Below are positions 19,642-46,056 of a DNA stretch of 46,056 bases, piece after piece. Position numbers and translations under genes: made by a program. Origin of the DNA: Clostridia bacterium (GTDB lineage: Bacteria; Bacillota; Clostridia; Oscillospirales; Acutalibacteraceae). The notes beneath the pieces are model-generated. The model searched no databases, was not told the DNA's origin, and saw only the letters and a list, made by a program, of their open reading frames with translations. The stretch's first letter is position 1. The number at the start of each line of letters is the position of its first letter. The stretch covers positions 1-46,056 of the forward strand of contig JAFQKF010000004.1 in assembly GCA_017397105.1 (NCBI GenBank). Direction: 5' to 3'.

Positions 19642-19924
19642 GTATACTTTGATTAACAGCAACACATAAGTCTGAAATGTAATAATATCACGCACATACG
19701 GGCATTTTTCTCTTTGACATACGCTCGTATGCCTGCATCGAAGAAATGCCCGTCTGCACGCAATCTCTTGCATTTCAGATGCGAAGCAGTTTTGAAATAG
19801 AAGATTTTTGTCTCAGCAAGGCGAAAATCTGAAGAAATACGGGGTTATTTCAAAGATTTTTAACGCGGCTGAGGCGGAAAGATTCCTTTCAAAACCTTAT
19901 GGCTTGCTGTTAATCAAAGTATAC
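19642..19924. mobile_element. MITE-like inverted-repeat element, about 283 bp
   Basis: The two ends (19642-19662 and 19904-19924) are perfect 21-bp inverted repeats, each with gtatac at its outer edge, and weaker similarity continues inward to about 40 bp. The interior is packed with smaller inverted repeats, including gggcattt/aaatgccc, catacg/cgtatg and tttgaaata/tatttcaaa, and has no coding capacity. This is the anatomy of a miniature inverted-repeat element. The outside of the left end shows a further near-copy of the tip. The right end overlaps the radical SAM gene and supplies its last codons and stop. Confidence 0.7.
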
Positions 19925-20670
19925 GGTGTATACGAATCTAAGATATCAATTATATCCTGCTTATAGATATTACCGCCGAGGATATAGCCGTTTGCGCTCA
20001 AACAGATTGCACGGATATCCGCAGGGTCTTCCTGATAGGGATTTTTGATTTCTTTTTTCAAATTAAAATATTCGCCAAGGTACTTAATTGCATTTCCGCT
20101 CGGAAAAATTACGTTGCCCTTGCTTGTTTCAATACCCGTATGATTGAACTCAGAAAGTATCTCACGTGTTTTGTCGTTATACGGATTATCATCATCGGAA
20201 CTCACAAGCCACGCAGGGTGAACCTGCAATTTAACACCGTGAACGTTAACTGCATCTGCAAACGCCTTAACGTATTCAAGCGGAATTGTTTCCTGATGAA
20301 AAGCATCAACCGAAAGCAGAATCTCATTGACACCGCTTTTAATTATCTTTTGAGCAACATTTTTTATTTCATCATAATCTTTGCTGAAATATCCGTTGGT
20401 TATCAGTTGCCTTTGAGGGATACTCATTTCTCTTGCGGCTTTATGGATTTCACAAACAGTTTCGCAGCAGAGCAAAGGCTCACCGCCAAATGTCATAACG
20501 GATTTAATGTTGTATTCTTTTGCAATTTTACGCACGGCATCAGATGCCAGAGCTTTATCAATTCTGTCGTTGCTCTTATGTTCACCCTGCGAGCAGTGTT
20601 TGCACTTCCCCGTGCAAGCCATAGTAACAACAAACTCTATTCGGTTAAGATTTTTCAGATATTTATTCAT
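19897..20670 (-). CDS. Radical SAM protein, C-terminus overwritten by the repeat element
   Basis: A 257-residue radical SAM enzyme. The 4Fe-4S cluster motif is CTGKCKHC (about residues 19-26), followed by the SAM-binding FGGEPLL and LSVDAFHQE. There is no classical SPASM cluster; late Cys residues are few (AICLSANG). The last nine or so codons (PYTLINSKP, stop) lie inside the inverted-repeat element, so the native C-terminus was probably replaced. It is the last gene of the operon, starting 1 bp after the kinase-GNAT fusion stop. The substrate is unknown. Similar small proteins act in peptide or cofactor modification, but nothing here fixes that. Confidence 0.85.
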   Translation of the reverse strand: MNKYLKNLNRIEFVVTMACTGKCKHCSQGEHKSNDRIDKALASDAVRKIAKEYNIKSVMTFGGEPLLCCETVCEIHKAAREMSIPQRQLITNGYFSKDYDEIKNVAQKIIKSGVNEILLSVDAFHQETIPLEYVKAFADAVNVHGVKLQVHPAWLVSSDDDNPYNDKTREILSEFNHTGIETSKGNVIFPSGNAIKYLGEYFNLKKEIKNPYQEDPADIRAICLSANGYILGGNIYKQDIIDILDSYTPYTLINSKP

Positions 20671-20671
20671 T

Positions 20672-21610
20672 TTATATCCTTTTCATCAGCTTAAAATACT
20701 CGCCGTCTTCGTCGGCACCGTCAAACAGCACTTGCGTGAATCCGTATTTTTTATATAAATGCAGGGCATTGACGTTATCTTTATCAACGCCTATCGTCAT
20801 TTCCGAATATCCCATTTCTTTTGCTTTTGCTATAAGAAATTCAAGAATTTCACTGCCGATGCCGCGGTTTCTGTATTCCTTTTTAACTATCATTCTTGAA
20901 ACGTAAATGCGTTTATCGGGGATAGTGTAATCGGGATCGCCTGCATCCGTAACCAAAGCACCTTCACCTATGAATTCGCCGTTTATTTTGTAAATGAACA
21001 CAAGGCGGTTGCCTGACTTTATCTCATCAAGCCATTTATCGGCAAACGGTTGAGATTTCATATTCCAGATATTTGAGCATTTGTGATAATCTTCGGGAAC
21101 GAGAGGATCAATTGTAATTTGTTTATCCGTAAAGTTTTCCATAAACTCATTCACCTGCCGTTTTGTTTTGAGCACAACGGTTTTATCTTTATATTTCTCA
21201 GCAATTTCTGCATATGTCTGCCGTCTTTCCCTGTTTCTGCAGCCGAACAGCGTAAACTTAACAAACCACCAATTCAAATCATTATTGTAACCGTCTGCTT
21301 TGCGTGATTTTGTCCTTTTTACCGCGCGGTAAAAACAAGTCAGCCGATTAAGCAAAATCAGCACAATCATATCCGCGCTTTCAAGCCGTTCATCATAAAG
21401 CAGATATTTATAATAGCCGTCAATTATCCAGCAGTCCTTTGCCATAAATTCCGAGACCTGCGGCAATACAAGTGAATCGTCAATCGGTTTCCATTCCTTA
21501 TCCCACTTAATCTCATCAAGATGAAGAACGGGGATATTTTTCTTTTCGGATATATAATCTGACAGATACGTTTTACCGCTGCCTGCATATCCCAAAACAG
21601 CTATTTTCAT
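20672..21610 (-). CDS. P-loop kinase-like / GNAT acetyltransferase fusion
   Basis: A 312-residue two-domain protein. Residues 1-165 resemble the adenylate-kinase-like 'topology modulation' (FlaR) family: Walker A GYAGSGKT at 7-14, LDEIKW, WIIDGYY and a lid-like basic segment. Residues 168-312 are a GNAT domain with the acetyl-CoA loop EYRNRGIGSEIL and a C-terminal NALHLYKKYGF. The start overlaps the preceding stop by ATGA. Separate single-domain relatives of both halves occur in the same operon (25409, 25897), so a fusion of operon members is plausible. It may phosphorylate or acetylate a small molecule; the substrate is unknown. Confidence 0.85.
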   Translation of the reverse strand: MKIAVLGYAGSGKTYLSDYISEKKNIPVLHLDEIKWDKEWKPIDDSLVLPQVSEFMAKDCWIIDGYYKYLLYDERLESADMIVLILLNRLTCFYRAVKRTKSRKADGYNNDLNWWFVKFTLFGCRNRERRQTYAEIAEKYKDKTVVLKTKRQVNEFMENFTDKQITIDPLVPEDYHKCSNIWNMKSQPFADKWLDEIKSGNRLVFIYKINGEFIGEGALVTDAGDPDYTIPDKRIYVSRMIVKKEYRNRGIGSEILEFLIAKAKEMGYSEMTIGVDKDNVNALHLYKKYGFTQVLFDGADEDGEYFKLMKRI

Positions 21611-23490
21611 TCTGCCACCTCTTTAATCAGCTCAAAAACTGCAGTGCCGTGCTTTTTCATATCAATCAAAATAACGTCTGTTTCACACTCGGCAAAATCT
21701 GCACCAAAAAGCGGTGCAACCCTATATTTTGAGGGCAAGGATATTTTAACCTCCCCGTCATTCACGCTATGAATTGAGAGGAAGCCTTCACCGCAATAAA
21801 TAACGTTACCGTCAGTATTATAGCAATGAACACCTGATGATATAAGGAAATTACGAAGCTCCGCTACTGAATAAAACGGCTTTTCCTTGCTTGCCTGAAT
21901 ATAGGAAACATTCAGCTTTTCGCACATTTCAACTGCGGATTTGCCGCTTTGTGACGGTATGGGTGCGGCAAAAATTGCCGCTCGGTATTTATGGAGCACT
22001 CTTGCGGCATCTTCAACCATACAAAGGTCAAACGGAATACCCGTGTTACCCAGCGCTTTCCTTATAATGTTCACGCTGTGGCAAAGCTGACTGCCGCGAG
22101 GATTATTGAGATATGCCTTTTCGTCAACAAACAAAACCGTCTGCGCGCAGGGATAATCCGCAGATTTCTTATCTTTTGACGCTTCGGCAGCAGCTTTCAT
22201 TTTTTTAAGCTCTGCCATAATCTCTGCATCGTGATACCAGCCGCCCCACATATCAAACCACCACACGCCTGACCCCTTTGTAATCTGATGAGCAAAAGCC
22301 TTGCGTATGGCAGAGAGTGAAAGCTCAGGTGTATCGGGTCCGCTCCATACGGTTTTGTTGCCGTTTTCATCTAAGGTATTATAGATATTATCGGGATATC
22401 TGCCGCTTCGGGAATCCTGCATTCTGCGGGTGAGATGCGTTCTTATATCACACTCAACAAAATAGAGCTTGCCGTGATTTTTAACCGATTCACTTGCAAG
22501 CATATCTCCCCAGTCAACGCCGAGATTCCTGTTATCATCATAGCCGCAGGGGGATGAGAAAAAGTCTATATACGGAGAATCAACGATAAATCTCAAGCCG
22601 TGAAGCCCCCAGAGATAATCATTCACAAAAGCGTTATATCCGTAAAAAACGCCCACAATCTGCTCGCCGTTTATATGTTCTTTAAGAACTCTTGCGAAAT
22701 GCTCAACGGTTTTTGCAGTCATTTCTCCGCAGAATTCGCCGTATCTGACGGCGGTTTCGTTGAAATCGCCGCAAAAATCCGATTTGGAGAGCGTCGGAAT
22801 ATCGGTTATACCGTATCTTTCTTTCATCCACGCGCTGAATTTACGCAGCGACACATCCGAAAAAGATCCGAAAAGATCGTGATGAATCCACTCCTGCGTA
22901 GTGCCGCCGCAAAGCTGATAGCCTGCTATTGAGTGAGCATATTCTGCAGAACGTATATGGGAAACAAGAGTGCAAAGGAGCTTGGCACCGTCACGGAGAA
23001 ACGCATCAGAATAAAGAGATTCCCTTGAGCCATGCGGAGTTTCAACCGTTTCGTCGGAATGATTTTTAATCCATTTACGCGGCATTGCAATATTGATTCT
23101 CGGGAAAACAAACGCATCCGGGCACTCCGAAAGTATGCGGCGCACAGCACCGTCAAACTCGGAATAATCGGGCTTATCCCGCTCAAACACACCCGTTAAA
23201 AACGGAGTAAACCCCGTAGCGTTATTTATTGGCAAATCAGTAAATGAAACATTCACAAAGAACATTCTGTATCCGCTTTTAATAAAATCGGAGTATTCGC
23301 CGCATTCTTCAAAATACGTTGTATACGCAAACGGAGCGTGGAGATTTCCGTTGACGGAAATAAAAGGCTTGCCATTTTTAACTTCAATCTGTGTTTTCAG
23401 CATATCAGTCAGCAAACATTCACACTCATCTTCCGTCAACCCGCCCTTGGTTTCTGAATCTATTTCAGTGTATTTTAACATTTCCCTCAT
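21607..23490 (-). CDS. Putative cytoplasmic glycoside hydrolase, beta-galactosidase-like
   Basis: A 627-residue protein without a signal peptide that looks like a clan GH-A TIM barrel with a C-terminal glutamine-amidotransferase-like domain, as in GH42 beta-galactosidases. The barrel runs to about 430, with a candidate acid/base Glu in GGTTQEW and a candidate nucleophile Glu in FVECDIRTH. The later part (ILFVDEKAYLN..., AAIFAAPIPS) fits the Rossmann-like domain. Assignment to GH42 itself is uncertain. It overlaps both neighbours by ATGA, so it is firmly part of the acetyltransferase/kinase operon, an odd setting for a glycosidase. Confidence 0.6.
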   Translation of the reverse strand: MREMLKYTEIDSETKGGLTEDECECLLTDMLKTQIEVKNGKPFISVNGNLHAPFAYTTYFEECGEYSDFIKSGYRMFFVNVSFTDLPINNATGFTPFLTGVFERDKPDYSEFDGAVRRILSECPDAFVFPRINIAMPRKWIKNHSDETVETPHGSRESLYSDAFLRDGAKLLCTLVSHIRSAEYAHSIAGYQLCGGTTQEWIHHDLFGSFSDVSLRKFSAWMKERYGITDIPTLSKSDFCGDFNETAVRYGEFCGEMTAKTVEHFARVLKEHINGEQIVGVFYGYNAFVNDYLWGLHGLRFIVDSPYIDFFSSPCGYDDNRNLGVDWGDMLASESVKNHGKLYFVECDIRTHLTRRMQDSRSGRYPDNIYNTLDENGNKTVWSGPDTPELSLSAIRKAFAHQITKGSGVWWFDMWGGWYHDAEIMAELKKMKAAAEASKDKKSADYPCAQTVLFVDEKAYLNNPRGSQLCHSVNIIRKALGNTGIPFDLCMVEDAARVLHKYRAAIFAAPIPSQSGKSAVEMCEKLNVSYIQASKEKPFYSVAELRNFLISSGVHCYNTDGNVIYCGEGFLSIHSVNDGEVKISLPSKYRVAPLFGADFAECETDVILIDMKKHGTAVFELIKEVAE

Positions 23491-24230
23491 GCTTTTCTCA
23501 CTTTCACAATCAAAAAGTTCGGCTTGATATATTCCTTTACCCAGGCAGGCACCTTTTCAATTACCCTTTCTTCAGGTGTGGGTTCGCAGACTTTTTCTAT
23601 AACAAATCCTGCTTTGGCAAGTGCGTTTACAATGTTGCTGAAAGTACGGTGATACTTTATAACACCGTCAACATACCAATGGATTCTGCGTTCTCCCGGA
23701 CGGTTGTAATCCGAAAATGTATAGGAAACTTTATTGCCGTTTTCATCTTTATTAAAATGACCTGCCCCGTCAACGGTTGAGGTGATAATCGGATGCTCCT
23801 GCGAAAACAAAAGCTGACCGCCTTCGCTCAGAACGGAATACATATCCTTTACGAAAGCATCGAAATCTTTAACGTAATGAAAAGCAAGCGAACTGTAAAT
23901 GAAATCAAACTTTTCGTCGAGATTTGAAACGTCCGTCATACTCATATTACGGTATTCAATTTTACTGTGTGCTGATTCTTCTTTTGCAACTGCAAGCATT
24001 TTTTCGGATATATCAATGCCGACAACCCTCGTTGCGCCTCTGTTTACGAAATCAATGCAGTTGTGACCGTAACCGCAACCCAGATCAAGAACGGATTTGC
24101 CGTTCAGATCGGGCAGAAGTTTACGCATTGCAGGTTGTTCGATTAAATCATTTGCATTGCAATCGCTGTCACGCAGAGCCTTGTAGCCGCTGAAAAACGT
24201 TTCGTTGTCAAATATGTTTTGTCTGCTCAT
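23487..24230 (-). CDS. SAM-dependent methyltransferase, class I
   Basis: A 247-residue Rossmann-fold methyltransferase. Motif I is SVLDLGCGYGHNC (about 46-58), the acidic end of strand 2 is VVGIDIS, and the motif IV region is FDFIYSSLAFHYV. These match small-molecule methyltransferases of the Methyltransf_11/25 type. The C-terminal half has an added RRIHWYVDGVIKYHRTF segment, probably the substrate side. The stop overlaps the next start by ATGA. It may modify a drug-like or metabolic small molecule; nothing specific can be said. Confidence 0.88.
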   Translation of the reverse strand: MSRQNIFDNETFFSGYKALRDSDCNANDLIEQPAMRKLLPDLNGKSVLDLGCGYGHNCIDFVNRGATRVVGIDISEKMLAVAKEESAHSKIEYRNMSMTDVSNLDEKFDFIYSSLAFHYVKDFDAFVKDMYSVLSEGGQLLFSQEHPIITSTVDGAGHFNKDENGNKVSYTFSDYNRPGERRIHWYVDGVIKYHRTFSNIVNALAKAGFVIEKVCEPTPEERVIEKVPAWVKEYIKPNFLIVKVRKA

Positions 24231-24239
24231 ATTTTCACC

Positions 24240-24842
24240 CTAAATCCCTTTGGTATGCTCATCATAATTAGCTTTGATAACCCGTCTTTCTTTATCAGTC
24301 AAACTCCAGATATGGATACCCGTATCGGCAGTGTTGAAGAAACAAATGCAATCAACGGGCATATTGAAGAATGAACGGTAAAGCTGATTTATCATTCCTC
24401 CGTGAGAAACAACAGCAACGGTTTCATCGTTCTCAGATTCATTTATAATTCTCGAAAGTGCATTCTCCGCTCTTTGCCTGAACTCAACCTGAGATTCCTG
24501 ACCGTAAACTGCTTTATCAATCGGCAAATCGGGAATTTCGGGATATTTCTCTATGACTACCGCTCGGGGTAAACCTGCAAGAAGTCCGTTATTGAACTCC
24601 ATCAAGTTCTCGTCAAAAACAACAGGAATTCCTGTTTTATCAGATAAGTGCTGTGCCGTCTGTTTTGCTCTTGTCAATGTACTTGCGTATATTTTGGAGA
24701 TGTTATAATTATCGGCAACATAATTTGCCATTGCTTCGGCTTGTCTGTGCCCTCTTTCGGTTAACGCAAAATCTGCTCTGCCTTCGTGAACATCAAGCAA
24801 ATCTGCTTCAGATTCACCGTGACGGATTACAAGTAATTTCAT
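24240..24842 (-). CDS. Histidine phosphatase (phosphoglycerate mutase-like)
   Basis: A 200-residue member of the histidine phosphatase superfamily. The catalytic RHGE motif is at residues 8-11 (LLVIRHGESEADL), a conserved Arg lies in STLTRAKQTA, Glu in FNNGLLAG follows, and the second His is in VVSHGGMI. These enzymes remove phosphate through a phosphohistidine. I chose ATG 24842 because GGAG lies six to seven bases upstream; an earlier in-frame start would overlap the previous gene. It sits among two kinase-like genes, which suggests phosphate transfer chemistry on a shared small molecule, but that is inference. Confidence 0.9.
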   Translation of the reverse strand: MKLLVIRHGESEADLLDVHEGRADFALTERGHRQAEAMANYVADNYNISKIYASTLTRAKQTAQHLSDKTGIPVVFDENLMEFNNGLLAGLPRAVVIEKYPEIPDLPIDKAVYGQESQVEFRQRAENALSRIINESENDETVAVVSHGGMINQLYRSFFNMPVDCICFFNTADTGIHIWSLTDKERRVIKANYDEHTKGI

Positions 24843-24852
24843 AAATTTCTCC

Positions 24853-25404
24853 TTATAAATCAAATCTCTCTTTTATCATTTTTGCAACAACTTCGGGCGC
24901 AAGATTCGAGTTATCAATTTTAATATAGTTCGGGAACGTTATCTCACCGTCATAGCTTTCTGTTCGGTATTTTTTGTCGGTGTCAAGCAAATCTTTTCTT
25001 GCAAAATCAAGATTTCGCTTTGACGGTTTATTGTTAAGACGGTTTTCTGTTGAGTTCCTTTCAAGTCTTATCTCCTGCGATGCAACAAGCTCAACATAAT
25101 AAATTTCTGCACCTTGCTCTTTGAACAAATCGGAAACATATTTTATGTAGTCCCAATCGCCTTGATGGTCAAATGCCCATACATAGGTGAATATCATTCC
25201 GTAGTTATTGCTTTTTGAAAACTCCTCAAAGAAAACCTGACGCAATCTGTGTACCGTTTTACCCTCATAGTATCCAAAAATCTCTATAACGGGCTCTATG
25301 GTCATATGATTATGAAACAGTTTTAAATCCGTGATTTTTGCAAGCTCCTGCCCGACCGTCATTTTACCGACAGCCAGATTGCCGAATATTATAACTAATT
25401 TCAT
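24853..25404 (-). CDS. P-loop nucleotide kinase-like protein
   Basis: A 183-residue P-loop protein. Walker A is GNLAVGKMT (8-16), with a conserved FHNHMTIEPV after the second strand and a basic lid-like region (RLERNSTENRLNNKPSKR). The layout resembles AAA_33/shikimate-kinase-like small kinases, which phosphorylate nucleosides, sugars or antibiotics. An AAGGTG site that overlaps the preceding stop supports ATG 25404. The substrate is unknown. Confidence 0.8.
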   Translation of the reverse strand: MKLVIIFGNLAVGKMTVGQELAKITDLKLFHNHMTIEPVIEIFGYYEGKTVHRLRQVFFEEFSKSNNYGMIFTYVWAFDHQGDWDYIKYVSDLFKEQGAEIYYVELVASQEIRLERNSTENRLNNKPSKRNLDFARKDLLDTDKKYRTESYDGEITFPNYIKIDNSNLAPEVVAKMIKERFDL

Positions 25405-25408
25405 AGCA

Positions 25409-25900
25409 TCACCTTATTTCTTTTAGGTAGTTGTCCGCTTCTTCTCTTGATTTAAAAACCGTTATTTGCACTTTGTTTTTGTACTTTTCAAGAAGCTCAT
25501 AAATCTTCGGCAAAGACGTTTTTGAAAAATCTCTGATAAACGTTTCAAATTCCGGGTCCAATTCTTTTTCTATCCACGCAAGGTCGTAACGTCCTTTGCC
25601 GAGCCTGTCCGTTGCGCCCTGAATACACACCTCAGCAGGCAAATCAAAAAGAAAAACCGTATCGCACTGCTGAAGCCTTGTTTCTATTGTCCGGTTATAA
25701 TTGCCGTCGATTATCCATTCGGGGGTTGCAAATATTTCCGATATTCTGCGGTCAAATTCTTCCCTCGGGATGTGAGTTTTATCGGGTTTATGCCATATAG
25801 CGTCAAGATAGTATAACGGCAGCCCCGTAAGCTTATTAAGTTTTTCGGCAAAGGTTGTTTTTCCGCTCCCCGGGCAGCCGATTACTATAACTTTTTTCAT
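25409..25900 (-). CDS. Adenylate-kinase-like 'topology modulation' (FlaR-type) P-loop protein
   Basis: A 163-residue P-loop protein with Walker A GCPGSGKTTF (8-17), then LYYLDAIWHKPDKT, WIIDGNYNRT and a DTVFLFDLP Walker B-like strand. This order is characteristic of proteins annotated as DNA topology modulation protein/FlaR, whose true substrate is not settled. The start overlaps the upstream GNAT stop by ATGA. The N-terminal half of the fusion protein at 20672 is a relative. Confidence 0.85.
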   Translation of the reverse strand: MKKVIVIGCPGSGKTTFAEKLNKLTGLPLYYLDAIWHKPDKTHIPREEFDRRISEIFATPEWIIDGNYNRTIETRLQQCDTVFLFDLPAEVCIQGATDRLGKGRYDLAWIEKELDPEFETFIRDFSKTSLPKIYELLEKYKNKVQITVFKSREEADNYLKEIR

Positions 25901-26418
25901 AATTTTTCCTCAGTGCAATCAAAGATTTTCTCCATTATCACGCTTCCGCCGTAATCTTCAATTACTTTGAATCCGTTTCTCTCATACATACCGTACGATA
26001 CGGTGGTATGCTTGAAAGTATTGAGCACCATTTTTGAAAAACCTTTTTCGCGGGCATCCTCCTGAATCTTCAGAAATGCACTTTTTCCGTAGCCCTTGCC
26101 CCTGTATTCCTCTTTGATAACGTTCTCGGTTACAAAAGCGGCGTTTTCCTCAAACGGGCTTTTCTGATAACCGATAACACCGATTTTTTCATCATTCTCA
26201 TTCACAACGATATAAAGGTAATTATCGGCAGACTCCGCACCACAGGGAAAAACATCCTTGAATTCCGCCTTTGCTTCCTTTTTCGCCTTCCACATAAACC
26301 TCTCGTCACCCGATTTTATCAGGTGCTCGGCATATGCCTTTACAGACCATTTTGAATATATCGGAAATTCATCACTGCTCATACGTTTTAAACTGATTTG
26401 TTTTAATTTATCTTTCAT
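25897..26418 (-). CDS. GNAT-family N-acetyltransferase
   Basis: A 173-residue acetyltransferase. The acetyl-CoA pyrophosphate loop EYRGKGYGKSAF is canonical, preceded by the strand AAFVTENVIKEE and followed by NTFKHTTVSYGMYERNGF. ATG 26418 is chosen because AAGGTGG lies five bases upstream; an upstream GTG would sit inside that site. It is in the middle of the operon and overlaps the next gene by ATGA. The acceptor substrate is unknown. Confidence 0.88.
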   Translation of the reverse strand: MKDKLKQISLKRMSSDEFPIYSKWSVKAYAEHLIKSGDERFMWKAKKEAKAEFKDVFPCGAESADNYLYIVVNENDEKIGVIGYQKSPFEENAAFVTENVIKEEYRGKGYGKSAFLKIQEDAREKGFSKMVLNTFKHTTVSYGMYERNGFKVIEDYGGSVIMEKIFDCTEEKL

Positions 26419-26442
26419 AAAAACCACCTTAATATCATCATT

Positions 26443-26994
26443 TTATAAATATCTCTGCATATAAACCAAGTTCTGATATGTTCCGTCTTTCAGTTTAAAG
26501 AAATCGGGCTTGACCGATTTGATTTGGAATCCAAATTTCTCGTAAAGTGCTTTAGCACGGTTGTTTCCCTCAATCATTTCAAGGTCAACAATTTCTGTGC
26601 CCTTATGTTCTTCTGCAGCTTTCATCAATTCTTTAAACATTGCCGAGCCAATACCGATATTCCAATATTTTTTCTGAAGGGCGATACCTACTGTTGCTAT
26701 ATGAGAAGTCTTGCTGCCGCTCTTAAAAGTAATGTCACAGTTACCTGCAATTGCACCGTCAACATAACAAGCGATAAACAGAGTGTTCCGACTTTCACGA
26801 ACATTATGAATAAATTTCTCTTCACTTTCTATAGTGACACTCTCCCAGTCTTCATTTGAACGAGAAAGAAACTCTGTTTCATTGGTTGCGGTTTTAATAC
26901 TGTTTAGTAACATTTCAGCATCTTTTATTTCAGGAGTTTTCAATATGGCAGTAGTGCCGTCTTTTAATGTGATTTTCTTATCTTCAAATATCAT
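26443..26994 (-). CDS. GNAT-family N-acetyltransferase
   Basis: A 183-residue acetyltransferase with loop QKKYWNIGIGSAMF and the C-terminal EGNNRAKALYEKFGF hallmark, similar in plan to RimJ/RimL or PhnO-type enzymes. ATG 26994 overlaps the upstream stop by 11 bases and has AGGAAAGG upstream; a GTG at 27003 is possible but closer to that site. Substrate unknown. As an operon neighbour of two other GNATs it may belong to a small-molecule modification set. Confidence 0.88.
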   Translation of the reverse strand: MIFEDKKITLKDGTTAILKTPEIKDAEMLLNSIKTATNETEFLSRSNEDWESVTIESEEKFIHNVRESRNTLFIACYVDGAIAGNCDITFKSGSKTSHIATVGIALQKKYWNIGIGSAMFKELMKAAEEHKGTEIVDLEMIEGNNRAKALYEKFGFQIKSVKPDFFKLKDGTYQNLVYMQRYL

Positions 26995-27808
26995 TAGTTT
27001 CACTTACCTTTCCTGAATGTTCTGACAAGATATATTTTATTTCCGTATCAGATTTATATGTAAACCCTATTATTTTCCCTTGATAATACAGAGCTTTAAA
27101 ACTGACGTTTCTGTTCTTTCTTGCGTTCCAAGCCATATTTTTAATATCTTTTCTGCGTGGCTTTCGGTTAATTTCTTTGCAGTATTCTTCCCAGACACCG
27201 TAAACCTCTTTTATCTGCGGATTGTTATATGGGTTTATTCCAATCAAATCCGTTGACGTAACAAGTTCTGAAATTGCATTATCAATTTCAAGAGAGGTTT
27301 CTTTTATATGTTTGATGTATACAAAATGCCGTCCCCAGCCTTGATGAATACCCGTATCGCGATACCCCATAGCTTTCCAGAAATCAATTCCGCTGACAGG
27401 GTCTGGATTTAACAAAACGGTATTGGTTTTGTTGTCCTTGAAAATGTTTTCTATATAGCTGTTCAGAATTCTGCCGTAACCTTTTCGCCTGTGCTTGGGT
27501 GAAATATAAAAATCTTTCACCTCGCCATAGGGGTACGGAATATCAACAACATCTGTTGAAGACGTTGAAATTGAAGCAAAGCCAATGATTTCCTTGGCTG
27601 ATTCCATAACGATGAAATAATCAGAATTACTAAAAGATGAATTTGAAATAATACTGTCATACAGCTCATAAAACATTTTCTTGTTGCCGGGCATTTCACC
27701 TTGATTGCGCAAGGACTTAATCTTATACTTTGCATAGATTTTGCGGAGTTTTTTGTAATTGCTTATGTTTTCTTTTGTAACGTTTGTAAATGTAAAATCT
27801 GTTTTCAT
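26984..27808 (-). CDS. GNAT acetyltransferase with extra C-terminal domain
   Basis: A 274-residue protein and first gene of the operon. Residues 1-165 are a GNAT domain (KDFYISPKHRRKGYGRILNSY loop region; late SGIDFWKAMGYRD). Residues about 180-274 form an additional domain I do not recognise, including PQIKEVYGVWEEYCKEINRK and a final strand-rich part (VSFKALYYQGKIIGFTY). AGAGG precedes ATG 27808. The leader-peptide attenuator lies immediately upstream, so this gene and those after it are probably induced together. Confidence 0.82.
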   Translation of the reverse strand: MKTDFTFTNVTKENISNYKKLRKIYAKYKIKSLRNQGEMPGNKKMFYELYDSIISNSSFSNSDYFIVMESAKEIIGFASISTSSTDVVDIPYPYGEVKDFYISPKHRRKGYGRILNSYIENIFKDNKTNTVLLNPDPVSGIDFWKAMGYRDTGIHQGWGRHFVYIKHIKETSLEIDNAISELVTSTDLIGINPYNNPQIKEVYGVWEEYCKEINRKPRRKDIKNMAWNARKNRNVSFKALYYQGKIIGFTYKSDTEIKYILSEHSGKVSETNDI

Positions 27809-27819
27809 AAAATCCTCTT

Positions 27820-27859
27820 TCTGTAATAAATAAAGGCACCCCCGAAGCGGAGATGCCTT
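27820..27859 (-). terminator. Attenuator terminator in the operon leader
   Basis: In minus-strand RNA AAGGCAUCUCCG (27859-27848) pairs with CGGGGGUGCCUU (27844-27833) through 12 pairs including two G-U, then UUUAUUUAUUACAG. The two G-U pairs would be mismatches on the plus strand, so it is built for the minus transcript. It lies 24 bp before the first structural gene and after the leader ORF. Its 5' arm can pair alternatively with leader codons 10-12. Confidence 0.85.
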
Positions 27860-27886
27860 AAATTTACAGAAAGATATAATATTACA

Positions 27887-27943
27887 TCAATCGCAAACGG
27901 ACAAAACGGCTCTCCGATTCATTGAGTTAATCATCATCGTCAT
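27887..27943 (-). CDS. Leader peptide of the acetyltransferase/kinase operon
   Basis: An 18-residue ORF (MTMMINSMNRRAVLSVCD) starts at ATG 27943, with AGGTGG five bases upstream and a sigma-A promoter about 32 bp before it. It ends in TGA 28 bp before the attenuator stem. Codons 10-12 (CGG AGA GCC, 27916-27908) are complementary to the 5' arm of the terminator (nine pairs around one bulged A). A ribosome that completes the peptide would mask this segment and let the terminator form. One held near the start would leave it free to form the antiterminator. Function is inferred from this geometry; the peptide itself is not recognised. Confidence 0.75.
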   Translation of the reverse strand: MTMMINSMNRRAVLSVCD

Positions 27944-27974
27944 CTTGTCCACCTGCCTTTCAGTAATTTTCTTC

Positions 27975-28003
27975 ATTGTAACAATATAAGAATAATTTGT
28001 CAA
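27975..28003 (-). promoter_or_regulatory. Promoter of the attenuated operon
   Basis: On the minus strand, TTGACA (28003-27998), a 17-bp spacer and TACAAT (27980-27975), close to consensus. Predicted transcription begins near 27968, giving a leader of about 160 nt before the first gene. No terminator is visible between trpB and this promoter. Confidence 0.88.
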
Positions 28004-28069: not shown

Positions 28070-29290
28070 TTATCTGATACCGTAGTTTTCAATGACGTAG
28101 TCCATATCCTTGTCGCCTCTGCCTGAAAGGTTGATGAGAATTGAGCCGTGGTCCATAGCCTTTGCAAGCTTCATGCCGAAAGCAACAGCGTGTGAGCTTT
28201 CAATTGCAGGAATGATACCCTCAAGACGGGAAAGCTTGTAGAATGCATCAATGGTTTCTTCATCATCAATTACGTCATACTTGACTCTGCCGATTTCCTG
28301 AAGGAATGCGTGCTCAGGACCGGATGAAGGATAATCAAGTCCGCTTGCAACGGAATAAACGGGAGCAGGCTCGCCGTTTTCATCCTTGAGCATAATGCTG
28401 TTGAAGCCGTGCATAATGCCCTCAGTGCCGTACTTGAGGCTTGCGGCATGGTCGCCGAGCTTGGGTCCTCTGCCGAGGGGCTCGATGCCGTAAATTTCAA
28501 CAGGGTCGTTGAGGAAGCCCGCAAAAAGTCCCGCAGCGTTTGAGCCGCCGCCGACACAGGCAACTATTGAGGTGGGCAGATGACCTGTCATTTCAATAAA
28601 CTGATCCCTTGCCTCAATGCCTACAACGCTCTGGAAATCACGCACCATCATGGGGAAAGGATGAGGGCCGAGAACTGAACCGATGCAGTAGATGGAATCC
28701 TTATATTCCTTGCTGTATGCATCAAAAGCAGCGTCAACAGCCTCTTTAAGAGTCTGCAGACCGTGGGTAACCTCTACAACGTTTGCGCCGAGAATTTTCA
28801 TTCTTGCCACGTTGGGAGCCTGCTTTTTGATATCAACCGAGCCCATATAGATATCGCACTGAAGGCCGAAATATGCAGCAGCAGTAGCAAGCGCAACACC
28901 GTGCTGACCTGCACCTGTTTCTGCAATAACCTTCTTTTTGCCCATATACTTTGCAAGAAGAGCTTCGCCCATGCAATGGTTGAGCTTGTGGGCGCCTGAG
29001 TGGTTAAGGTCCTCACGCTTTGCGTAAAGCTGTACCTTGCCGCCGAGGGAATCCGAAAGTCTTTCAAGATGAGTTACGGGAGTAGGTCTGCCCTGAAACT
29101 CCTTGCGGATTCTGCGAAGCTCGGCAATAAACTTCCTTGACTGGCAGATTGAATAATATGCCTCTGTAATTTCAGCCATTGCTGCCTTGAGCTTATCATC
29201 AATATATACTCCGCCGTATTTGCCGAAGTAGCCGTTTTTATCGGGATAATTGTTAAAATAAGTATCAAAATCAACGTTATTGAGTTTCAT
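28070..29290 (-). CDS. trpB: Tryptophan synthase beta chain
   Basis: A 406-residue PLP enzyme that makes L-tryptophan from indole and L-serine. The PLP lysine is Lys102 in HSGAHKLNH. Other family blocks are [12 protein letters not shown], the glycine-rich phosphate loop [10 protein letters not shown], and [13 protein letters not shown]. Length and sequence fit the standard TrpB1 type, which normally works with TrpA. No trpA or other trp gene is adjacent, so it may pair with a distant TrpA or scavenge indole. GGAG lies upstream of ATG 29290. A tryptophan T-box precedes the gene. Confidence 0.97.
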
Positions 29291-29390: not shown

Positions 29391-29660
29391 AAAATCCCTG
29401 ACAGACAATTCTGCCAAGGACGAATAATCATTCGCGGTGCCACCTTGATTCACGGCAAAGCCGTGCACTTTAAGCGGGATACTTACATACCCCCGGCAAC
29501 TTACGTATGCCAACACGTTGCAGAATACTCTGAGCATAACGCTCATTTGACTGCACCCTCAGCGGCCCATTTGACAACCTGTTTCTCACCCGACTCTCAG
29601 CAGCGCGGGCTCTCTGTAAAGGCATAATTGCCGTTACTTCCGCTTCAACGGTTTAGTATT
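29391..29660 (-). promoter_or_regulatory. T-box riboswitch, tryptophan type
   Basis: The minus strand carries the T-box consensus AAGGTGGCACCGCG (29446-29433), followed by the terminator CCTTGGCAGA/TCTGTCAGGG and seven Ts (29419-29391). Upstream is a long structured Stem I region starting near 29640 (CAGAGAGCCC). The candidate specifier codon is TGG (29569-29567, in CAAATGGGCC), matching tRNA-Trp and the trpB gene it precedes. Uncharged tRNA-Trp should stabilise the antiterminator and allow trpB transcription. Confidence 0.93.
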
Positions 29661-45792: not shown

Positions 45793-45867
<75 letters not shown>

Positions 45868-45916
45868 GACTAATAAATTATATATGCCTTTGCACCAAAA
45901 TATTCCACAAAAAAAA

Positions 45917-45992
45917 TGGAGCGGATGACGAGGCTCGAACTCGCTACCTCCACCTTGGCAAGGTGGCGCTCTACCAGATGAGCTACATCCGC
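45917..45992 (-). tRNA. tRNA-Gly(GCC)
   Basis: A 76-nt cloverleaf on the minus strand. Acceptor GCGGATG pairs with CATCCGC, the anticodon stem CCACC/GGTGG encloses TTGCCAA (anticodon GCC), the T-loop is TTCGAGC, and the CCA is encoded. Confidence 0.97.
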
Positions 45993-45998
45993 ATGATT

Positions 45999-46056
45999 TG
46001 GTGCCTTCGGCCGGAGTCGAACCAGCGACACGTGGATTTTCAGTCCACTGCTCTAC
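45999..46056 (-). tRNA. tRNA-Phe(GAA), 5' end outside the window
   Basis: The minus strand shows anticodon stem GTGGA/TCCAC with loop CTGAAAA (anticodon GAA), a T-arm GCTGG-TTCGACT-CCGGC, acceptor half CGAAGGC and encoded ACCA. The D-arm and 5' acceptor strand are cut off by the window edge. Confidence 0.93.

Follow-up and report, generated by a model that had tools for sequence, protein, structure and literature searches.

What controls the run of modifying-enzyme genes on the minus strand of a 46,056-nucleotide (nt) contig from a Clostridia bacterium (JAFQKF010000004.1; hereafter ‘the window’), and what signal would switch it on? An earlier note, made from the letters of the DNA, had described a complete leader-peptide attenuator ahead of these genes. 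Our comparison of homologues, together with modelled folds, makes it probable that the leader is a ribosome-mediated transcription attenuator, backed by a lock at the level of translation, and that it likely senses a translation inhibitor.

Architecture of the leader

The whole leader lies on the minus strand at 28003-27814 and comprises a promoter, an 18-codon open reading frame (ORF) and a 12-bp terminator, followed by closely spaced or overlapping genes. Its parts, with segment names used below and the basis of each (SD, Shine–Dalgarno), are as follows.

28051-28020, minus: two direct boxes, ACGCTTTTGAA and ACACTTTTGCA, 11 bases each and 21 bp apart, upstream of the promoter (read from the sequence)
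28003-27975, minus: sigma-70-type promoter TTGACA-17-TACAAT (sequence; also present in close copies)
27956-27941, minus: segment A, leader ORF SD and start codon, 5′ side of the anti-antiterminator hairpin (fold, covariation)
27943-27887, minus: leader ORF MTMMINSMNRRAVLSVCD plus stop, SD AGGTGG (sequence; frame conservation)
27916-27908, minus: segment X, codons 10-12 CGGAGAGCC, antiterminator 5′ strand (fold, coupling to terminator)
27908-27893, minus: segment B, from the end of codon 12 through codon 17, anti-SD side of the same anti-antiterminator hairpin as A (fold, covariation)
27874-27864, minus: segment P, partner of the first gene’s SD region (fold, P:Q pairing test)
27859-27848, minus: segment T, terminator 5′ arm, doubling as antiterminator 3′ strand (sequence, fold)
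27844-27833, minus: terminator 3′ arm, then UAUUUAUUA (sequence)
27826-27816, minus: segment Q, overlapping the gene 1 SD (27822-27814) (fold, P:Q pairing test)

The near-consensus promoter that the earlier note had pointed out is present, with 11 of 12 consensus matches and a TG ahead of the -10 element; it is the best among 8 promoter-like sites within 2.5 kb, where 5.6 are expected by chance. The 18-codon ORF and its good ribosome site are also in place. The terminator stands as a stem of 12 pairs at 27859-27833, 7 of them G-C, but the claimed U-run is interrupted (tail UAUUUAUUAC). As claimed, codons 10-12 are complementary to GGCAUCUCCG in the terminator 5′ arm through nine pairs with one bulged A, and these nine X:T pairs form in the folded window element once the SD is covered.

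Although every feature of that description is found where it had been placed, two helices had been missed. Segments A and B form a 16-pair hairpin that sets the leader SD and start codon against codons 12-17, and P:Q is a perfect 11-bp stem closed around the terminator, part of it lying over the SD of gene 1, an acetyltransferase gene; both are fold predictions. The leader as a whole folds at -57.4 kcal/mol, compared with -36.0 (s.d. 4.1) for 200 shuffled versions, none of which is as low (z -5.3). With the SD hairpin keeping codons 10-12 in its loop, the untranslated RNA of the window element should terminate.

Genes behind the terminator

The genes that follow, all on the minus strand, are listed in order.

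26984..27808, minus: gene 1, GNAT acetyltransferase, 274 aa (Pfam PF00583, 1.5e-11)
26443..27003, minus: gene 2, GNAT acetyltransferase (Pfam)
25897..26427, minus: gene 3, GNAT acetyltransferase (Pfam)
25409..25900, minus: gene 4, small P-loop protein like ‘DNA topology modulation protein’ (NCBIfam NF005994, 2.7e-39, 134.9 bits, below the cut-off of 215)
24853..25404, minus: gene 5, possibly a P-loop kinase (weak matches to shikimate kinase models, E 0.02 and 0.05)
24240..24863, minus: gene 6, histidine phosphatase superfamily (PF00300, 4.7e-42)
23487..24230, minus: gene 7, SAM-dependent methyltransferase (PF08241, 2.4e-22)
21607..23490, minus: gene 8, 627 aa, overlapping gene 7 (no Pfam family at 1e-4)
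20672..21610, minus: gene 9, GNAT acetyltransferase, overlapping gene 8 (PF00583, 9.4e-18)
19897..20670, minus: gene 10, radical SAM protein, adjoining gene 9 (PF04055, 5.9e-13)

Among the first seven, Pfam identifies the GNATs, the methyltransferase and the histidine phosphatase. The operon may be longer than these seven, judging from genes 8-10, which lie on the same strand and overlap or adjoin. In an NCBIfam scan of the seven window proteins and eight proteins linked to other leaders, 0 of 15 exceeded a curated cut-off among the matches listed, and the leader peptide itself matched no NCBIfam family.

Homologues and their distribution

A second copy of the leader in the window’s own genome (G000:C47:10793-10900) is 94% identical over 108 matched bases in a DNA search and ends, with its contig, inside the terminator. 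The same kind of search over 60 genomes gave strong matches (E < 1e-9) in 11, own genome included; at E 1, 51 of the 60 matched, mostly by chance. Twelve aligned elements, the window’s among them, share a highly conserved core and precede first genes of several kinds. With the covariance model built from these twelve (R1), 45 genomes of the same genus were searched: 15 had a match at E 1e-5 or better and 28 at 0.1. Across the order, R1 had matches at 0.1 in 38 of 295 genomes, the weak ones including bare terminators. From at least 53 R1 matches listed, 11 were set aside by eye as non-members (L052, L053, L054, L056, L058, L075 and L078-L082).

Another kind of leader (like MTYIILIKSSVILSAD) was used alone to build a further model, R2, which recovers the window element at E 4.4e-11. 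Among the 295 genomes of the order, R2 matched below 1e-6 in 13, own genome included, and 24 at 0.001; among 398 genomes across the phylum the strong match was in the own genome only, with two more at 3.5e-4 and 6.5e-4, these large searches using stricter filters that lose weak matches.

We also scanned GTDB contigs for the SD segment and its partner, allowing a gap of 20 to 50 bases and requiring that codon 2 begin with A. The scan returned 109 stretches holding 110 pattern matches, or 109 credible elements after removal of L216, a match that reads on as an ORF of at least 80 codons, has no terminator and is probably due to chance; the pattern thus yields some false matches. Of the 109 stretches, 91 are titled Oscillospiraceae bacterium or Clostridia bacterium, and other hosts include Pseudoflavonifractor capillosus, Paenibacillus ginsengarvi, a Lachnospiraceae and a Bacilli metagenome-assembled genome. 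The strong sequence matches thus lie mainly within Oscillospirales, with cases outside. Plasmid records searched with the leader gave no match, and phage records nothing beyond 24 matching bases in a single Rhizobium phage (two records). In what follows, the first coupling run, the earlier run of ribosome positions, the P:Q test and the module-extent comparison drew on 80 of the 109 loci; the coupling test on 28 elements, the ribosome masking and the downstream-homologue and peptide counts drew on all 109.

Conserved frame, covarying helices and matched terminators

Conservation of the leader ORF had been put forward as a check on the attenuator. In all 110 pattern matches (one, L216, probably chance), segment B is in frame with the ATG despite the free gap of 20-50 bases, the ATG-to-B distance taking six values from 30 to 51 nt; relatedness makes the independent cases fewer than 110. 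The ORF has 15-24 codons in 108 of the 110 matches and reads 40 codons in L204. A terminator was detected within 110 nt in 104 matches; among the six others, one stretch (L122) ends 24 nt past the match, one (L161) holds unread bases and one is the probable non-member L216. The 104 reduce to 100 distinct elements, used for the pairing energies and the ribosome folds below.

Covariance in homologous leaders, a further proposed check, is seen in both helices. In the 40 covariance-model matches counted, standard pairs fill 96.9% of pair cells. Column shuffles give 83.3%, none of 500 reaching the observed value, and controls shifted by 1-3 columns give 41.6-54.6%; the alignment was fitted to the tested structure and therefore favours it. 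Both sides change in 15 of 27 pairs (SD hairpin 4, terminator 11). A divergent leader (L267, positions 90-480), which precedes a gene that resembles LytTR regulators by eye, has two adjacent SD-hairpin pairs exchanged on both sides, again by eye.

The complementarity on which the earlier note rested its switch goes beyond chance. In 28 nonredundant elements, X pairs with its own terminator at -12.6 kcal/mol, compared with -8.5 kcal/mol when terminators are permuted (z -7.9, 0 of 20,000 as good), and in all 28 the X:T duplex ends 0-4 nt from B. An earlier run, which left out 6 of 81 elements, gave z -6.9 for 21 leaders; only 5 of the 21 had no better partner than their own terminator (its rank ran from 0 to 9), and at p 0.05 59 of 75 elements did better than shuffled leaders, whereas 16 did not. 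Conservation of the complementarity, which had also been named as a check, is found in 94 of the 100 distinct elements at -8 kcal/mol or better while the terminator sequences change. The terminators vary, and the leader codons next to B still fit the terminator of their own element; this matching against permutations supports the proposal that antiterminator and terminator exclude each other.

P:Q was evaluated by pairing the stretch from leader stop to terminator with the region before the first gene, using 39 nonredundant elements of 73. A stem of -8 kcal/mol or better is found in 27 of the 39 (z -7.6, 0 of 20,000), and 12 lack a strong stem.

A modelled ribosome frees the antiterminator

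To place a ribosome on the leader, we masked -15 to +14 around the P-site codon, footprint limits that are assumed, and folded the RNA to the terminator loop, counting X:T as formed at 6 or more pairs; an earlier run of these positions covered 74 distinct elements. With the ribosome at codons 1, 2 and 3, X:T formed in 96, 99 and 97 of 100 elements. The count was 70 at codon 4 and 48 at codon 5, then 3, 3 and 0 at codons 6, 7 and 8. With the ribosome mid-leader X:T formed in 0 of 99 elements, at the last codon in 51 and at the stop codon in 59 of 100; in free RNA it formed in 22 of 100. In the window element it forms with the ribosome at codons 1-5, the last codon and the stop, and does not form at codons 6, 8, 10, 12 or 15, nor without a ribosome. 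Foreign terminator arms also paired with X at this threshold in 91 of 168 control folds that had the ribosome at codon 2, as against 28 of 28 for own arms, presumably because many X segments are alike.

These folds agree with the claim that a ribosome held at the first codons frees the antiterminator, and they narrow the stall window from the suggested codons 1-8 to codons 1-5 in this element and 1-3 across the family. The companion claim, that finishing the peptide favours termination, need not always hold: in the 59 elements just counted, a ribosome that pauses at the stop codon would keep the antiterminator available.

When the window leader is folded to the end of its U-tract, all 12 terminator pairs are kept at each of 12 ribosome positions. 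The completed terminator thus wins at equilibrium, so antitermination must be kinetic, with X:T forming first during transcription. That argument is made for antiterminators, which lie upstream and can form first, in the vmlR study (PMC9226507).

We therefore picture the switch, from predicted folds, in three states. With no ribosome on the leader ORF, A:B would pair, X would stay in the loop, the terminator would form and RNA polymerase would stop. Under free translation the ribosome would pass, A:B would re-form and termination would follow again. A ribosome held on the first few codons would cover A, and the freed X could then pair with the emerging terminator 5′ arm so that transcription continues; the P:Q stem over the gene 1 SD should weaken too, since X:T crosses P:Q. 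The likely signal would be a translation inhibitor acting at initiation or on the first peptide bonds, and the operon enzymes would likely be protective. Both the drug as inducer and the protective role of the enzymes are what we infer from this arrangement.

What the leader may sense

The same RNA switch could instead answer a general slow-down of initiation, such as starvation, (p)ppGpp or cold, and not an antibiotic. All that the folding needs is a ribosome that stays for a while within codons 1-3, the peptides show no evident arrest motif beyond the paired segments, and a (p)ppGpp effect is reported for vmlR (PMC9226507). Chemical protection nevertheless fits the downstream genes better, those scanned being mostly acetyltransferases, other small-molecule enzymes and exporters, an argument qualified by the LytTR regulators and by a cobamide-remodelling-like enzyme (below cut-off). 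We regard this slow-down reading as unlikely, though it deserves to be kept in mind. A good deal less probable is arrest at the other end of the leader, through a C-terminal VLSVCD or ILSAD sequence that arrests the ribosome, or through delayed peptide release. A ribosome on the stop codon does cover B and free X in 59 of 100 elements and in the window’s, and three tails account for 61 of 110 leaders (VCD 35, AD 16, VCK 10); yet 27 different tails follow LS among the 110, the segment changes with its RNA partner in divergent members, and pairing explains much of its conservation.

Sensing of Cys, Arg or Thr charging by a classical amino-acid attenuator is very improbable. The window leader has Arg-Arg at codons 10-11 and Cys at 17, and Thr is residue 2 in 78 of 110 leaders, where the search pattern had forced a codon 2 beginning with A. 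Against this, there is no single-residue run, Cys occurs in 55 of 110 leaders and Arg in 61 of 110, so that neither is general, and the identified downstream genes are not biosynthetic for Cys, Arg or Thr. Attenuation of the trp/his type was rejected, the codons not being conserved and a run of regulatory codons being absent. Hardly credible at all is a constitutive promoter with a partial terminator, the ORF and the complementarity being incidental, a reading opposed alike by frame conservation, covariation and own-terminator matching. An attenuator that responds to a ribosome held early on the leader, likely by an inhibitor, is the reading that we carry forward.

Relation to known attenuators

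Four systems resemble the element in design. In vmlR of Bacillus subtilis, a drug-stalled ribosome leads to antitermination; like ours, it has an upstream ORF in an anti-antiterminator hairpin, an alternative antiterminator and an intrinsic terminator, and an additional structure covers the SD of the gene it controls, a likeness of architecture. Unlike ours, it controls one ABCF gene, and its SD-covering structure is a separate downstream hairpin (PMC9226507). The rli80-hflXr leader of Listeria monocytogenes likewise has a 14-codon ORF over the anti-antiterminator, an antiterminator and a terminator, but its peptide carries the RLR macrolide-arrest motif and a single gene is the target (PMC6310831). 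None of our 110 leader peptides has an RLR motif in its first 24 residues. In bmrB-bmrCD of B. subtilis, lincomycin gives more readthrough, and terminator, antiterminator, predicted anti-antiterminator and a translated leader in bmrB recall ours; the leader has 53 residues and the terminator lies inside the ORF, unlike ours (PMC4191407). For toiL-topAI of Escherichia coli, tetracycline and retapamulin are reported to stall ribosomes at the start codon of the upstream ORF, which, as proposed here, senses several drug classes; it differs in unmasking an SD and in using Rho, not an intrinsic terminator (PMC12121999).

At the gathering score, no model of Rfam release 15, T-box included, matches over the window leader. 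At E up to 5 across ten loci, a snoRNA model alone (E 0.93, below gathering) fell over one leader (L121), which we take as chance. We did not find the element reported in the open literature; subscription journals, where Term-seq work may exist, lie mostly outside that coverage. With no Rfam family and no such report, we call the element new: it is a portable, widespread variation on the known vmlR/hflXr/bmrB attenuator logic.

A probably portable unit ahead of changing genes

Downstream of the leaders lie single and double GNATs, GNAT_C acyltransferases, methyltransferases and P-loop proteins, as well as an S66 peptidase, a PF09818 ATPase, MFS and ABC exporters and LytTR regulators; representatives were scanned and the rest placed by sequence clustering or eye. 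The cobamide-remodelling-like enzyme mentioned above also follows a leader. Homologues of each of window genes 1-7 (E 1e-10, same strand, within 6 kb) occur downstream of 4 to 11 elements among the 105 that have some downstream sequence. At least one such homologue over half or more of its length is found in 24 elements, in 18 orders or subsets, some being distant paralogues near 30% identity; the 3 kb upstream, on either strand, gave 1 such match in all.

A unit running onward from about 100 nt before the leader SD is common to the window, 8 of 38 VLSVC-type elements and the second copy in the own genome (at least 75% identical from -100 to -80 relative to the SD). Identity falls beyond this unit and again past the terminator; the remaining 30 VLSVC-type elements share the leader and not the upstream stretch. 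A search with the module matched 10 of 45 genomes at E 0.001. In another genome (G013, L059), the leader of a LytTR-like gene has a 31-base match to the boxes (E 3.9e-4) immediately before it, and boxes like these also stand ahead of the L267 leader. The two boxes are perhaps a binding site for a regulator. The sole LytTR gene found in the own genome has neither boxes nor leader upstream, so LytTR control through the boxes stays an idea.

From its sequence contexts the leader looks like a portable unit ahead of an interchangeable gene pool. A broader proposal is possible, although we hold it with less than even confidence: a portable, general sensor of start-codon arrest that re-matches its terminator and codons and is placed before shuffled sets of enzymes and exporters in Oscillospirales and some neighbours. 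If it is true, gut bacteria would hold a large pool of inducible protective genes, and the list of its targets would offer leads to new resistance enzymes, among them the GNAT_C acyltransferases, the histidine phosphatases and the S66 peptidase. If the inhibitor-sensing reading is right, a searchable leader would flag drug-inducible genes, even those of unknown function, in gut and ruminant bacteria, which have few characterised resistance genes; the genes behind it may form a set of drug-inducible protection genes that have gone unrecognised in gut bacteria. It would also allow a direct test of whether an attenuator senses initiation-stage arrest generally or a peptide-specific stall.

Individual loci illustrate the variety of first genes. 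One element (L184) directly precedes an S66 LD-carboxypeptidase gene, and that of Paenibacillus ginsengarvi (L164) directly precedes a gene for a PF09818 ABC-class ATPase; the gene in Candidatus Woodwardibium (L190) looks similar by eye. Two further elements (L149 and L123) precede MFS exporters, the L149 protein having a weak similarity to the Mef(A) macrolide-efflux model (49.4 bits, cut-off 675).

Elsewhere in the window, a tRNA cluster at 45793-46056 on the minus strand comprises tRNAs for Cys and Gly and a third one that is truncated where the window stops. A T-box leader (Rfam RF00230, 103.7 bits) lies at 29413-29657 on the minus strand, before the gene for a PLP-dependent enzyme at 28070-29290 (Pfam PALP), which we take to resemble the tryptophan synthase beta chain.
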